Below, in pieces: positions 32,169 to 36,125 of a DNA stretch of 64,000 nucleotides. The position numbers and the translations under genes are program-made. Positions within the stretch are counted from its first letter, which is position 1, and each line of letters starts with the position of its first letter. The notes under the pieces are model-generated. The model was not told where the DNA came from. It saw only the letters and a list, made by a program, of their open reading frames with translations, and searched no databases. The stretch comes from Bartonella sp. DB5-6. Its GTDB lineage: Bacteria; Pseudomonadota; Alphaproteobacteria; Rhizobiales; Rhizobiaceae. The stretch spans positions 62,001 through 126,000 of the forward strand of contig NZ_JH725115.1 in assembly GCF_000278115.1 (NCBI RefSeq), read 5' to 3'.

Positions 32169-32876
32169 ATGCGTGAAATTATTTTTGATACGGAAACAAC
32201 AGGTTTAGATAAAGAGAAAGATCGCATAATCGAAATCGGTTGTGTAGAGATGGTTGATCATTATCTTACAGGGCGCCGATTCCATGTTTATTTGAATCCG
32301 CAAGGCGTTATTATTCCTGATGAAGTTGTAGCAATTCATGGATTAACCAATGAACGCTTAAAGAATGAAAAAAGTTTTAGTGATATTGCTGATGAGTTTT
32401 TGGAATTTATTAATGACGCAACAATGATTGCACATAATGCGAGTTTTGATATTGGTTTTCTTAATGCAGAATTAGAACGAGCAAATAAACCACTTATCAG
32501 TGTTGATAATATTCTTGATACATTGGCTATGGCGCGGCGTAAATTTCCCATGGGTCCTAATTCTCTTGATGTTTTGTGCAAACGCTTTGGAATTGATAAT
32601 AGCCATCGTGTTCTTCATGGTGCTTTGCTTGATGCGGAGATTCTTGCAGATGTTTATATTGAACTCATTGGTGGAAAGCAGGGCATATTGGGTTTTGATA
32701 ACAGGGGGAGTATTGATGAGGATACTCAAAATAACAAAGATGCTCTCTACGTAGTGAAACTACGCCCACAGCCTTTACCTTCAAGACTAAGTGCACAAGA
32801 AAGAAGTATGCATGCTGACTTTATCAACAAAATGGGTAAAAAAGCTCTGTGGAATGACTTTGAAGTTTCTGAATAG
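32169..32876 (+). CDS. dnaQ: DNA polymerase III epsilon subunit (proofreading exonuclease)
   Basis: 235 residues. DnaQ exonuclease motifs are present: I, FDTETTGLDKEKDRIIEIG; II, AHNASFDIGFLNAEL; III, HRVLHGALLDAEILADVY. The C-terminal part would bind the alpha subunit. It closes the maf-aroE-coaE-dnaQ row. In related genera secB commonly follows, but no secB is seen here. Confidence 0.95.
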   Translation: MREIIFDTETTGLDKEKDRIIEIGCVEMVDHYLTGRRFHVYLNPQGVIIPDEVVAIHGLTNERLKNEKSFSDIADEFLEFINDATMIAHNASFDIGFLNAELERANKPLISVDNILDTLAMARRKFPMGPNSLDVLCKRFGIDNSHRVLHGALLDAEILADVYIELIGGKQGILGFDNRGSIDEDTQNNKDALYVVKLRPQPLPSRLSAQERSMHADFINKMGKKALWNDFEVSE

Positions 32877-32949: not shown

Positions 32950-33040
32950 AAAAAATACGGTCGTTGTGGGGAGGGGAACACCACAACGACCCTGTCGCTA
33001 CATAGTACCTCAGCTATCATAGGAGGAGCAAAATGAAAGC
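32950..33040 (-). ncRNA. Candidate small RNA with two anti-Shine-Dalgarno loops (cuckoo/CcsR-like)
   Basis: On the minus strand a -10-like TATAAT (33047-33042) precedes an RNA of about 87 nt. Hairpin 1 pairs GCTTTCAT (33040-33033) with ATGATAGC (33020-33013), one mismatch, and exposes TTTGCTCCTCCT in the loop. Hairpin 2 is a perfect 11-bp stem, GGTCGTTGTGG with CCACAACGACC (32991-32981 and 32969-32959), with CCCCTCC in the loop. It is followed by GTATTTTTT, an intrinsic-terminator layout. Twin hairpins displaying CUCC-type loops are the hallmark of alphaproteobacterial cuckoo RNAs. No good -35 is seen, and the promoter leaves part of the first stem ambiguous. Confidence 0.5.
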
Positions 33041-33074
33041 TATTATATCCTGTAACAGCAAAGAAAAGCTCTAG
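33033..33074 (+). CDS. Possible 13-residue leader ORF upstream of polA
   Basis: ATG at 33033 follows a near-perfect AGGAGGAGC Shine-Dalgarno and encodes MKAIISCNSKEKL before TAG. It is the only obvious translation signal in the 342-bp dnaQ-polA spacer on the plus strand. The same bases form the loop and stem of the candidate minus-strand sRNA, so the strong Shine-Dalgarno may simply be the complement of its anti-SD loop. Confidence 0.2.
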   Translation: MKAIISCNSKEKL

Positions 33075-33218
33075 GTACCAAATATAAAGTGCAACGACTT
33101 CATGCTTTATGAAAAAAGAAAATGGCTTTTTAGAGGCAGGTCGATAAATTTTAAAAATAAGAATGAAAAAAATATATAAAAAAGTGAATTGTTTTTTTAA
33201 TGGAGAAATAAAATTGTC

Positions 33219-36125
33219 ATGAAAGCAACAGATCATCTTTTTTTGGTTGATGGGTCGGGCTATATTTTTCGCGCTTACTACGCTTTGCCACCTTTAAAGC
33301 GCAAAAAGGATGGACTTCCTGTGGGAGCCGTAGCTGGCTTTTGTAATATGCTGTGGAAATTGCTCTGTGATGCACGCAATACAGCTACCGGTGTTGTTCC
33401 AACGCATTTTGCTGTTATTTTTGACTATTCATCCGATACATTTCGAAAAAAAATTTATCCACAATATAAAGCTAATCGGGAGGCACCTCCTGAAGATCTT
33501 ATTCCTCAATTTGCTCTAATACGCCAAGCAACAAGGGCTTTTAATTTGCCTTGTATCGAAAAGGAAGGATTTGAAGCAGATGATTTAATTGCTACTTATG
33601 CAACACAGGCAACAAAGATTGGAGCAAAAACAACGATTATCTCTTCTGATAAAGATCTGATGCAATTAGTAAATACACATGTATTTTTATATGATGGAAT
33701 GAAAGATAAGCATATCGGTATTTCTGAGGTTATAGAGAAATGGGGTGTTGTTCCTGAAAAAATGGTTGATTTGCAAGCTTTGATTGGAGATCAGACAGAT
33801 AATGTTCCAGGCATTCCGGGTATTGGCCCCAAAATTGCAGCCCAATTGCTGGATCAATTTGGTTCTCTCGATCTTTTATTGCAACGAGTAACAGAAGTTA
33901 AACAAACAAAACGGCGTGAAAATATTCAAATTTATAGTGAACAAGCAAAAATTTCTCGTGAACTCGTTCGGCTTAAAACAGATGTACCTGTAGATAATGA
34001 TTTAGATGATTTTGTTTTAGAATCACAAGATGGTCCACGCTTAATCGCCTTTCTTAAAGCGATGGAATTTACGACATTAACACGTCGTGTAGCAGCAACA
34101 ATGGAATGTGACGCAGCAGTTATTGATACACTCGATATAAACGTTGAGTGGGAAAAACCCGCCCACGAGCGTGATTCTGATGTCAAAAAAATTGAGAGAG
34201 CATCTTTTCATGATTTCTCTGAGAATTCTCCACAATGTTTAGCACAAAAACGTAAAGATCAAGCTCTTACCCAAAAAATTACAAGAGATGCCTATACAAC
34301 TATTCTTAATGAAGAAATTTTGAAAGAATGGTTATCAAAAATACAAGAACAAGGCTTCTTTTCTTTTGATACTGAAACGACTTCACTTGATCCACTACAA
34401 GCGAAGCTGGTTGGTTTTTCATTAGCATTACAGCCGGGAGAAGCTGCCTATGTGCCCCTTGAACACGTTGAAGGGGGAGATGATCTTTTAGGCGGTGGGC
34501 GTATTGTTGAGCAGATTGAAGTACAAAAGGCTTTGGCACTTTTAAAGCCGATATTAGAAGATCAATCGGTGTTAAAAATTGGTCAGAATATAAAGTATGA
34601 TTGGTTAGTCATGAAGCAATACGGCGTTGTGATGCGTTCTTTTGATGACACCATGCTTTTATCATATGTTTTAGATACAGGAACTCTAACACATAATATG
34701 GACGATTTATCTAAGCGTTGGCTTGGACATAAACCTATAGCTTACAAAGATCTAACATATAACGGAAAAAAGATTACTTCTTTTGCGCAAGTGGATTTAA
34801 AACAGGCGACCCTTTATGCGGCGGAGGATGCTGATGTAACGCTCCGTTTATGGCAAGTTTTAAAACCACAACTCGTGGCGCAAGGGATGACAAAAATTTA
34901 TGAACGTCTTGATCGACCACTGATAGAAGTTCTTGCAAGAATGGAAGAACGTGGAATTCTCGTTGATAGACAGATTTTATTGCGTCTTTCAGGAGAATTA
35001 GCGCAGGCTGCTTTTATTTTAGAAGAGGAAATTTATCAGCTTGCTGAGGAGAAATTTAATCTTGCCTCACCAAAGCAATTGGGTGATATACTTTTTGGCA
35101 AAATGGGGTTGCCTGGAGGTGCTAAAACGAAAGGTGGACAGTGGTCAACTTCTGCACAGACCTTAGAGGAGTTAGCTGCTGATGGTCATATTTTACCTCG
35201 TAAAATTATTGATTGGCGTCAACTTGCAAAACTAAAATCTACCTATGCAGATGCTCTACCTTCTTATATTTTTCCAAAAACAGGGCGTGTTCATACCAAT
35301 TATTCTTTAGCAATAACAACAACGGGACGGTTATCATCATCAGAACCTAACTTACAAAATATTCCAGTGCGGACTGCTGAAGGACGTAAAATACGCACGG
35401 CTTTCATTGCTCCAAAAGGACATGTACTACTATCGGCTGATTATAGCCAGATTGAATTGCGCATTCTTGCACATATTGCCGACATTACGGCGCTAAAGGA
35501 AGCTTTTGCCCAAGGTCAGGATATTCACGCTATAACGGCATCGCAAATGTTTGGGGTTTCGATAGAAGGAATGTCCTCAGATATACGACGACGTGCGAAA
35601 GCGATTAATTTTGGCATTATTTATGGCATTTCAGCTTTTGGATTAGCGAATCAATTGGGTCTGTCGCGACAGGAGGCTGGGCGTTATATTCAACTTTATT
35701 TTGAAAGATTTCCGGGAATTAAAGATTATATGGAGAAGACTAAAACATTTGTACGCCAAAATGGTTATGTAGAGACCATTTTTGGACGCCGTGTCCATTA
35801 TCCGGAAATAAAAGCGGCTAATCTACAAATTCGTTCTTTTAATGAACGTGCTGCTATTAATGCACCGATTCAAGGTTCAGCGGCGGATATTATTCGTCGT
35901 GCCATGATTCAAATGGAAGGTGCTTTGGAAAAAGAAAAACTATCGGCAAAGATGTTGCTACAAGTGCATGATGAACTCATTTTTGAAGTACCAGAAAATG
36001 AAAGTGAAAAAACCATGGCTGTCGTTAAAAAGGTTATGGAAAATGCTACAATGCCGGCTCTTTCTTTATCTGTACCACTTGAAGTGAAAGTAATGGTTGC
36101 TCAAAATTGGGATGAAGCACATTAG
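33219..36125 (+). CDS. polA: DNA polymerase I
   Basis: 968 residues. The N-terminal 5'-3' exonuclease has LFLVDGSGYIFRAYYALPP, IVDLQALIGDQTDNVPGIPG-type helix-hairpin-helix residues and acidic metal ligands. A 3'-5' exonuclease domain is present with FDTETTSLDPL and a YAAEDADVTLRL motif. The polymerase core carries LLSADYSQIELRILAHI (motif A), RRRAKAINFGIIYG (motif B) and LLQVHDELIFEV (motif C). Proofreading residues look intact. The stop codon overlaps that of the convergent downstream gene (shared TTAG). Confidence 0.97.
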   Translation: MKATDHLFLVDGSGYIFRAYYALPPLKRKKDGLPVGAVAGFCNMLWKLLCDARNTATGVVPTHFAVIFDYSSDTFRKKIYPQYKANREAPPEDLIPQFALIRQATRAFNLPCIEKEGFEADDLIATYATQATKIGAKTTIISSDKDLMQLVNTHVFLYDGMKDKHIGISEVIEKWGVVPEKMVDLQALIGDQTDNVPGIPGIGPKIAAQLLDQFGSLDLLLQRVTEVKQTKRRENIQIYSEQAKISRELVRLKTDVPVDNDLDDFVLESQDGPRLIAFLKAMEFTTLTRRVAATMECDAAVIDTLDINVEWEKPAHERDSDVKKIERASFHDFSENSPQCLAQKRKDQALTQKITRDAYTTILNEEILKEWLSKIQEQGFFSFDTETTSLDPLQAKLVGFSLALQPGEAAYVPLEHVEGGDDLLGGGRIVEQIEVQKALALLKPILEDQSVLKIGQNIKYDWLVMKQYGVVMRSFDDTMLLSYVLDTGTLTHNMDDLSKRWLGHKPIAYKDLTYNGKKITSFAQVDLKQATLYAAEDADVTLRLWQVLKPQLVAQGMTKIYERLDRPLIEVLARMEERGILVDRQILLRLSGELAQAAFILEEEIYQLAEEKFNLASPKQLGDILFGKMGLPGGAKTKGGQWSTSAQTLEELAADGHILPRKIIDWRQLAKLKSTYADALPSYIFPKTGRVHTNYSLAITTTGRLSSSEPNLQNIPVRTAEGRKIRTAFIAPKGHVLLSADYSQIELRILAHIADITALKEAFAQGQDIHAITASQMFGVSIEGMSSDIRRRAKAINFGIIYGISAFGLANQLGLSRQEAGRYIQLYFERFPGIKDYMEKTKTFVRQNGYVETIFGRRVHYPEIKAANLQIRSFNERAAINAPIQGSAADIIRRAMIQMEGALEKEKLSAKMLLQVHDELIFEVPENESEKTMAVVKKVMENATMPALSLSVPLEVKVMVAQNWDEAH

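Follow-up and report, generated by a model that had tools for sequence, protein, structure and literature searches.

The 64,000-nucleotide stretch of Bartonella sp. DB5-6 DNA that we analysed (the window) carries, on the minus strand of the gap between a dnaQ-type gene and polA, what appears to be an sRNA gene that in this Bartonella branch has been refolded beyond recognition by a standard RNA search. The feature is very probably a vertically inherited descendant of ar7 (Rfam RF02342; SmelC023/sra03/Smr7C). Taken as a whole, the data are best explained by a stand-alone, trans-acting sRNA gene of this descent, with a promoter box and a terminator of its own, a reading to which we assign a probability of roughly 0.8. 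A preliminary description of the site was borne out in part as to what it had observed, and in part as to how it had interpreted it: a minus-strand non-coding RNA with an intrinsic terminator and an exposed anti-SD-like loop, conserved across Bartonella, is very probably right.

Both flanking genes lie on the plus strand, the dnaQ-type exonuclease gene (32169..32876; Pfam RNase_T, 1.1e-40) being convergent with the RNA and polA (33219..36125; Pfam DNA_pol_A, 1e-159) divergent from it. Given this arrangement, the only evident transcript that a leftward minus-strand terminator could end is one beginning within the gap. The predicted gene, about 150 nt, would occupy 32950..33100 of the minus strand, from about 7 nt past the putative -10 box to the T-run; its transcription and both its ends are predictions from sequence. 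The SmelC023 RNA of Sinorhizobium meliloti measures 147 nt by deep sequencing, according to the accessible text of PMC2873474. The much shorter transcript of about 87 nt that had been proposed found no support, and a promoter-like box stands some 65-90 bases upstream of the TATAAT from which it was meant to start.

The terminator hairpin (32959..32991, minus strand; arms 32991-32981 and 32969-32959) has an 11-bp perfect stem and the loop TGTTCCCCTCC, and is followed by GTATTTTTT ending at 32950, with the T-run TATTTTTT at 32950..32957. None of 200 shuffles was equally stable (z -4.07), and 99.8% of cells were paired in an alignment of relatives, so the role of terminator previously ascribed to this element holds. 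A simple terminator scan did not flag the hairpin because the loop is too long for that scan. The anti-SD-like loop UGUUCCCCUCC (32970..32980) contains CCCCTCCCC in 47/47 sequences, and the unpaired probability of UUCCCCU within it was 1.00 (seven positions tested).

The two loop sequences first reported, CTCCTCC (33028-33022) and CCCCTCC (32976-32970), are both present on the minus strand. Of the two hairpins drawn around them, however, only the second is far beyond chance; the first, taken by itself, is not (z -0.93, with 34 of 200 shuffles as stable), and is mostly a minor fold. The 90-nt stretch holding both gave z -3.29, a value matched by one shuffle in 200.

Given its position between dnaQ and polA, the element could be imagined as a mere terminator or 3' UTR of dnaQ, or as part of the polA leader, with no independent RNA. 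We regard this as highly improbable: the T-run follows the hairpin on the minus strand only, no minus-strand gene is apparent upstream in the gap, and conservation and covariation span the whole 150 nt and the promoter box, as against mean pairwise identities of 0.675 in the polA-side flank and 0.358 in the dnaQ-side flank (48 loci of the window's clade). Over the same loci, identity was 0.976 in the terminator, 0.909 in strands a to c (see below), 0.872 in the promoter stretch, and 0.778 and 0.785 in the P1/P2 stretches.

When a 161-base query was run by blastn, matches upstream of polA at E ≤ 2.0e-22 were obtained in 48 of 61 same-genus genomes. The other 13 were reached by way of polA; in ten of these polA loci the same query picked up the terminator part (E ≤ 0.007). 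Altogether, the gap upstream of polA holds such an RNA in 61/61 Bartonella genomes examined. The dnaQ-polA gap was measurable in 56 of the 61 loci; five of the 13 divergent loci showed no dnaQ within the sequence examined. We speak below of the window's clade (48 loci) and of a bee-associated/basal type (13 loci; examples are B. apis PEB0122 and B. choladocola BBC0122). The alignment of the clade (A1) has 47 rows, since L010 and L012 do not differ over the part aligned.

A coding reading was rejected. The 149-aa minus-strand ORF has no Pfam match, and neither of the two overlapping ORFs tested gave one; no reading frame runs uninterrupted through the RNA in 19 of 47 sequences, and the best single frame is open in at most 16 of 47.

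Upstream of the gene lies the conserved box GCCTCTAAAAAGCCA (33123..33137, minus strand), the counterpart of the CTTGAAAAGCCA-type boxes of rhizobial and bee-type genes. It includes the putative -35 element CTCTAA (33135-33130), and 17 bases further on TCATAA (33107..33112, minus strand) would, by position, be the -10 element, giving a predicted start near 33100. The form C[CT][CT]T[AG]AAAAG[CA]CATTTT occurs in 47/47 sequences and the stricter CTCT[AG]AAAAG[CA]CATTTT in 45/47; thus the box of the window's clade can be written GCCTCTRAAAAGCCAT (CTCT form in 45/47, or 47/47 allowing one more C/T). Bee/basal-type Bartonella have GCCCTTGAAAAGCCAT or a near variant upstream, and rhizobial RNAs CCCTTGAAAAGCCAC, GCCCTTGAATCGCCA or a near variant. 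These sequence features make 33135-33107 a likely promoter. A simple sigma-70 scan did not flag this box, its sole hit (33200-33171) being at chance level; a scan of the window for CTTGAA-type motifs gave two matches, also at chance level and neither at the sRNA locus.

For SmelC023 in S. meliloti, RpoD and RpoH1/2 promoters are assigned in a review table, as far as the accessible part of PMC7143759 goes. Such labels may not carry over to Bartonella, because the -35 element has changed. The groES upstream regions of four genomes are uninformative on RpoH use, since they carry CTTGACA together with what we presume to be CIRCE-type repeats.

The TATAAT named in the preliminary description does exist (33047-33042), but makes an unconvincing promoter: the scan found no sigma-70 pair there, and only 23 of 47 sequences keep the box intact, one frequent change among relatives being a one-base deletion. 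Moreover, because its last T (33042) is the first base of a hairpin arm, an RNA starting about 7 nt past it would miss most of that arm.

The consensus fold obtained by RNAalifold from 47 sequences consists of a long-range stem P1, a second stem P2, an inner helix a:c and the terminator, 37 pairs in all, with 99.1% of 1736 cells able to pair. Stem P1 joins the 5' arm GUCGUUGCA (33090..33098) to 33002-32994 (3' arm, 32994..33002) in nine pairs, five of them doubly changed, with 98.1% of cells paired; P2 joins GUACCU (33073..33078) to AGGUAC (33005..33010), with 97.5% paired. All these elements are on the minus strand, as are the three strands next described. Double changes affected 10 of the 37 pairs (five of the ten in P1), whereas shuffles gave 3.4 ± 1.2 and slid versions 2 to 8; these counts are to be read with the close relatedness of the sequences, and the derivation of the fold from the same alignment, in mind.

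Inside P2, strand c (UCCUAUGAUAGCUG, 33011..33024) can pair with either of two partners. In the favoured fold it pairs with strand a (GCUGUUACAGGA, 33048..33059) in 11 pairs, pairable in 100% of cells over 47 sequences. Strand b (UAGCUUUCAU, 33033..33042), which was the 5' arm of the first hairpin in the preliminary description and stands at the position of ar7 hairpin 2, competes with a for c; its helix has nine pairs, two of them doubly changed, with 98.8% of cells paired. When folds were forced, a:c was favoured over b:c by a median of 3.0 kcal/mol, and the mean probabilities were 0.82 and 0.03, respectively. The probability of a:c fell below 0.5 in five of 47 sequences (L031, L035, L037, L045 and L048), and in L035 alone does b:c lead (0.69 vs 0.23). 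The anti-SD-like CUCCUCC (33022..33028, minus strand), exact in 37 of 47 sequences, had a mean unpaired probability of 0.38 in the full transcript.

The highly conserved segment AGAGCUUUUCUUU (33060..33072, minus strand), roughly where ar7 has its hairpin 1, forms no pairs in the consensus fold. It is better conserved than the flanking P1/P2 stems, and mean pairwise identity over 33070-33055 was 0.961. It is possibly a protein or target site.

The competition for strand c suggests a refinement of the preferred reading, namely a conformational switch in which c pairs with a, partly burying the anti-SD CUCC, or with b, leaving the loop open. The b:c helix would form after cleavage upstream of 33042 or upon binding of a partner, and the active RNA would be a processed one of some 90 nt, not far from the transcript first proposed. 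Most of the clade retains both pairings, the median energy gap between them is only 3.0 kcal/mol, L035 prefers b:c, and for the S. meliloti relative the accessible text of PMC2573895 lists a doublet (about 140 and 90 nt). However, b:c is mostly a minor fold, it is weaker in the two B. bacilliformis-type sequences, which keep 5 and 7 of its 9 pairs, and in others that have a one-base deletion; besides, the retention of both pairings says little, because the sequences are close relatives. We therefore rate such a switch as unlikely. Slightly less likely still is its fullest form, a rebuilt long-range fold in which a new strand buries the central anti-SD loop until cleavage or a ligand frees it, turning a constitutive translation repressor into a conditional one.

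The preliminary description had assigned the site to the cuckoo/CcsR (ar14-type) anti-SD sRNAs, as an RNA of about 87 nt with the TATAAT as promoter. Indeed, the sequence allows two hairpins whose loops carry CTCCTCC and CCCCTCC, most relatives retain b:c, and as a pair the hairpins exceed shuffled sequences in stability. Yet, of the seven covariance-model matches at the locus up to E 10, none was to a cuckoo-type family (ar14/suhB), the loops read CUCCUCC and CCCCUCC rather than CCUCCUCCC, no DUF1127 gene is adjacent, the TATAAT is poorly kept and overlaps a hairpin arm, and an ar14-like match lies elsewhere in the genome. Membership in this family is accordingly very improbable. The accompanying remark that no such gene is annotated here fits Rfam as regards the window's clade; it does not fit rhizobia and bee/basal-type Bartonella, where the syntenic RNA is ar7.

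At gathering thresholds, Rfam gave no match in the window. At permissive thresholds, ar7 was the only bacterial sRNA match at the locus, with 13.5 bits (E 2.4) against a cut-off of 60, and it covered the terminator only. We ran the ar7 model on 36 of the 61 Bartonella genomes: all 13 bee/basal-type genomes scored above the cut-off, at 69.4-84.2 bits and in the polA gap, as opposed to none of the 23 window-clade genomes. Thirteen of the latter had one sub-threshold match (11.6-22.4 bits), the sole one per genome and in 13/13 cases at this locus and strand; the other ten had no match up to E 10. Weak matches also appeared in eight of 14 control genomes, so that the sub-threshold scores mean little as such and it is the place that carries weight. 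The match at E 2.4 would be worthless alone, and counts only because all 13 fall on the locus. In one bee/basal-type genome, a second ar7-like match lies away from polA (G012:C1:113696-113835; 32.7 bits, E 9.2e-5, sub-threshold).

Descent from ar7 rests on place and on the intermediate bee/basal type, not on direct similarity to rhizobia. With nhmmer, a profile of 47 window-clade sequences found 13/13 bee/basal-type loci nearly full length (E ≤ 6.6e-9), and a profile of the 13 bee/basal-type sequences found 48/48 window-clade loci (E 1.2e-11 to 2.2e-4), 36 of them nearly full length and 12 in the 3' part only; both profiles include the promoter box, and the E-values refer to the small locus sets searched. 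Against 30 rhizobial loci, the window-clade profile gave nothing significant (best E 0.22). Homology to accepted ar7 members along the gene is thus reached via the bee/basal type, and it is accompanied by divergent adjacency to polA and a 3' intrinsic terminator with a C-rich loop. The window's RNA has the long-range P1/P2 fold instead of consecutive hairpins with conserved C-rich loops.

To quantify this structural difference, we computed how many pairs the first 35 bases are expected to form with the pre-terminator spacer. The median was 16.1 (12.3-18.8) in 47 window-clade sequences, 1.5 (0.0-8.2) in 13 of the bee/basal type and 0.02 (0.0-0.5) in 30 rhizobial ones, the rhizobial spacer block having been placed at a fixed distance from the end. 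According to these folding models, in the window's clade a long-range closing stem has replaced the hairpin row of ar7; the stem is not predicted in rhizobia. The fold of the window's RNA is the derived one, because the outgroup has the hairpin row. In L049, L051 and some other bee/basal-type loci, the 5' hairpin loop CACUGC could pair with a spacer GCAGU. This pairing, absent in L058-L060, is perhaps a precursor of stem P1.

In 121 genomes of the wider family, the ar7 model matched 103 at E ≤ 1 and 79 above the cut-off. Among the best 30 loci, the polA start was adjacent and divergent in 28. Two rhizobial-family loci, L071 and L076, showed no polA in the 3 kb examined, so synteny is sometimes broken. 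In the accessible portions of the literature, sra03/SmelC023 of S. meliloti is located between polA and SMc02851 (PMC2245857, PMC2573895), with a size of about 120 nt in the former paper, and all but one of the members of the SmelC023 family model adjoin DNA polymerase I (PMC3927594, section 2.3). The orientation row for sra03 (< < >) in PMC2245857 apparently gives the same direction as polA; the accessible text of PMC2573895 and 28 loci here disagree, the RNA being divergent from polA.

A family survey lists 29 SmelC023 relatives in Rhizobiaceae, Brucellaceae and Phyllobacteriaceae, and also names Bartonellaceae for a model group including SmelC023, although the accessible part of the paper is not fully clear on this point (PMC3927594). 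Our literature search found no paper on Bartonella with ar7, and its sole match for Smr7C concerns Mesorhizobium huakuii. Nor did the literature, so far as its accessible text goes, yield a report on expression of the polA-gap RNA in Bartonella.

As to function, the exposed CCCCUCC, and CUCCUCC when freed, would pair with the purine-rich Shine-Dalgarno regions of several mRNAs, and such pairing would block ribosome binding. By analogy, we give slightly better than even odds to this anti-SD mechanism, with the C-rich loops acting as antisense to ribosome binding sites. For NfeR1, an alphaproteobacterial ar14 sRNA, anti-SD action is supported by motif mutants (PMC10746234, accessible text). In the window's own genome, GGAGGGGA precedes an ATG at 11 places, little above the eight found for the reversed control; three of the 11 places precede ORFs of at least 100 aa (133 to 249 aa).

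Irrespective of mechanism, descent from ar7 would account for the apparent absence of a known sRNA from most Bartonella: the gene is kept in every genome examined, and it is the fold that appears to have been rebuilt in the window's clade. The case would thus be a well-sampled one of a bacterial regulator whose structure was rewired while its terminator loop, the place of its promoter and its position in the genome were retained. It also offers a concrete candidate RNA to look for in Bartonella transcriptomes.

Compared with cuckoo, ar14 (NfeR1) and CcsR RNAs, the window's RNA shares C-rich loops complementary to Shine-Dalgarno sequences, and may work alike in principle. However, it differs in loop motif, locus, neighbourhood and the lack of a family match: the cuckoo-type loop motif is CCUCCUCCC (PMC10746234, PMC3927594), and a DUF1127 gene is associated with CcsR/CIN1-type RNA (PMC10253847), as the accessible parts of these papers have it. 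The sole DUF1127 match of the window's genome lies about 89 kb from the sRNA locus (G000:C2:6115). A cuckoo-type family probably does exist in Bartonella, away from the polA gap. The ar14 model gave matches at E ≤ 10 in nine of 11 genomes, two of them (G021 and G003, both bee/basal-type) above the cut-off, and sub-cut-off matches in nine of 14 control genomes. In the window's genome, outside the window, the ar14-like candidate is G000:C2:194281-194398 (L195; 31.8 bits, E 3.3e-4, cut-off 58.8).

BbsR14 of Bartonella bacilliformis is likewise a Bartonella sRNA with two anti-SD loops (PMC7717549, accessible text). As a candidate for the window's RNA it was rejected, its described loops occurring elsewhere: by our identification, the TTCCTCCTAA loops fit G050:C1:1360594 (L188) rather than the polA gap, at about 5 kb on the same contig. 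In that B. bacilliformis-type genome, a sub-cut-off ar14-like match of 26.5 bits (G050:C1:1360532-1360652, L188) has two TTCCTCCTAA loops, which, taken with the published description as far as it is accessible, suggests that BbsR14 is the Bartonella ar14/NfeR1-type RNA.

The ar7 RNAs of bee/basal Bartonella occupy the same gap as the window's RNA and resemble it in profile over the whole length, with a box-to-loop distance of about 158-165 nt in both types; they differ in keeping the canonical hairpins, in passing the Rfam cut-off and in their terminator loops CCCCTCTCC, which read CCUCUCC and not CCUCC. In comparison with ar7 of S. meliloti itself (SmelC023 = sra03 = smrC7/Smr7C), the window's clade lacks the 5' hairpin and hairpin 1, its 5' end pairing instead with the pre-terminator spacer; the loop GUCCCCC seems to have turned into UUUUCUUU, the -35 CTTGAA has become CTCTRAA, and the Rfam score lies far under the cut-off. 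On the other hand, the two RNAs have the same polA-divergent place, similar lengths (about 150 nt predicted vs 147 nt), related promoter boxes, a potential for pairing where hairpin 2 stands, and a terminator loop with CCUCC, as seen by eye in 30/30 rhizobial-family sequences.
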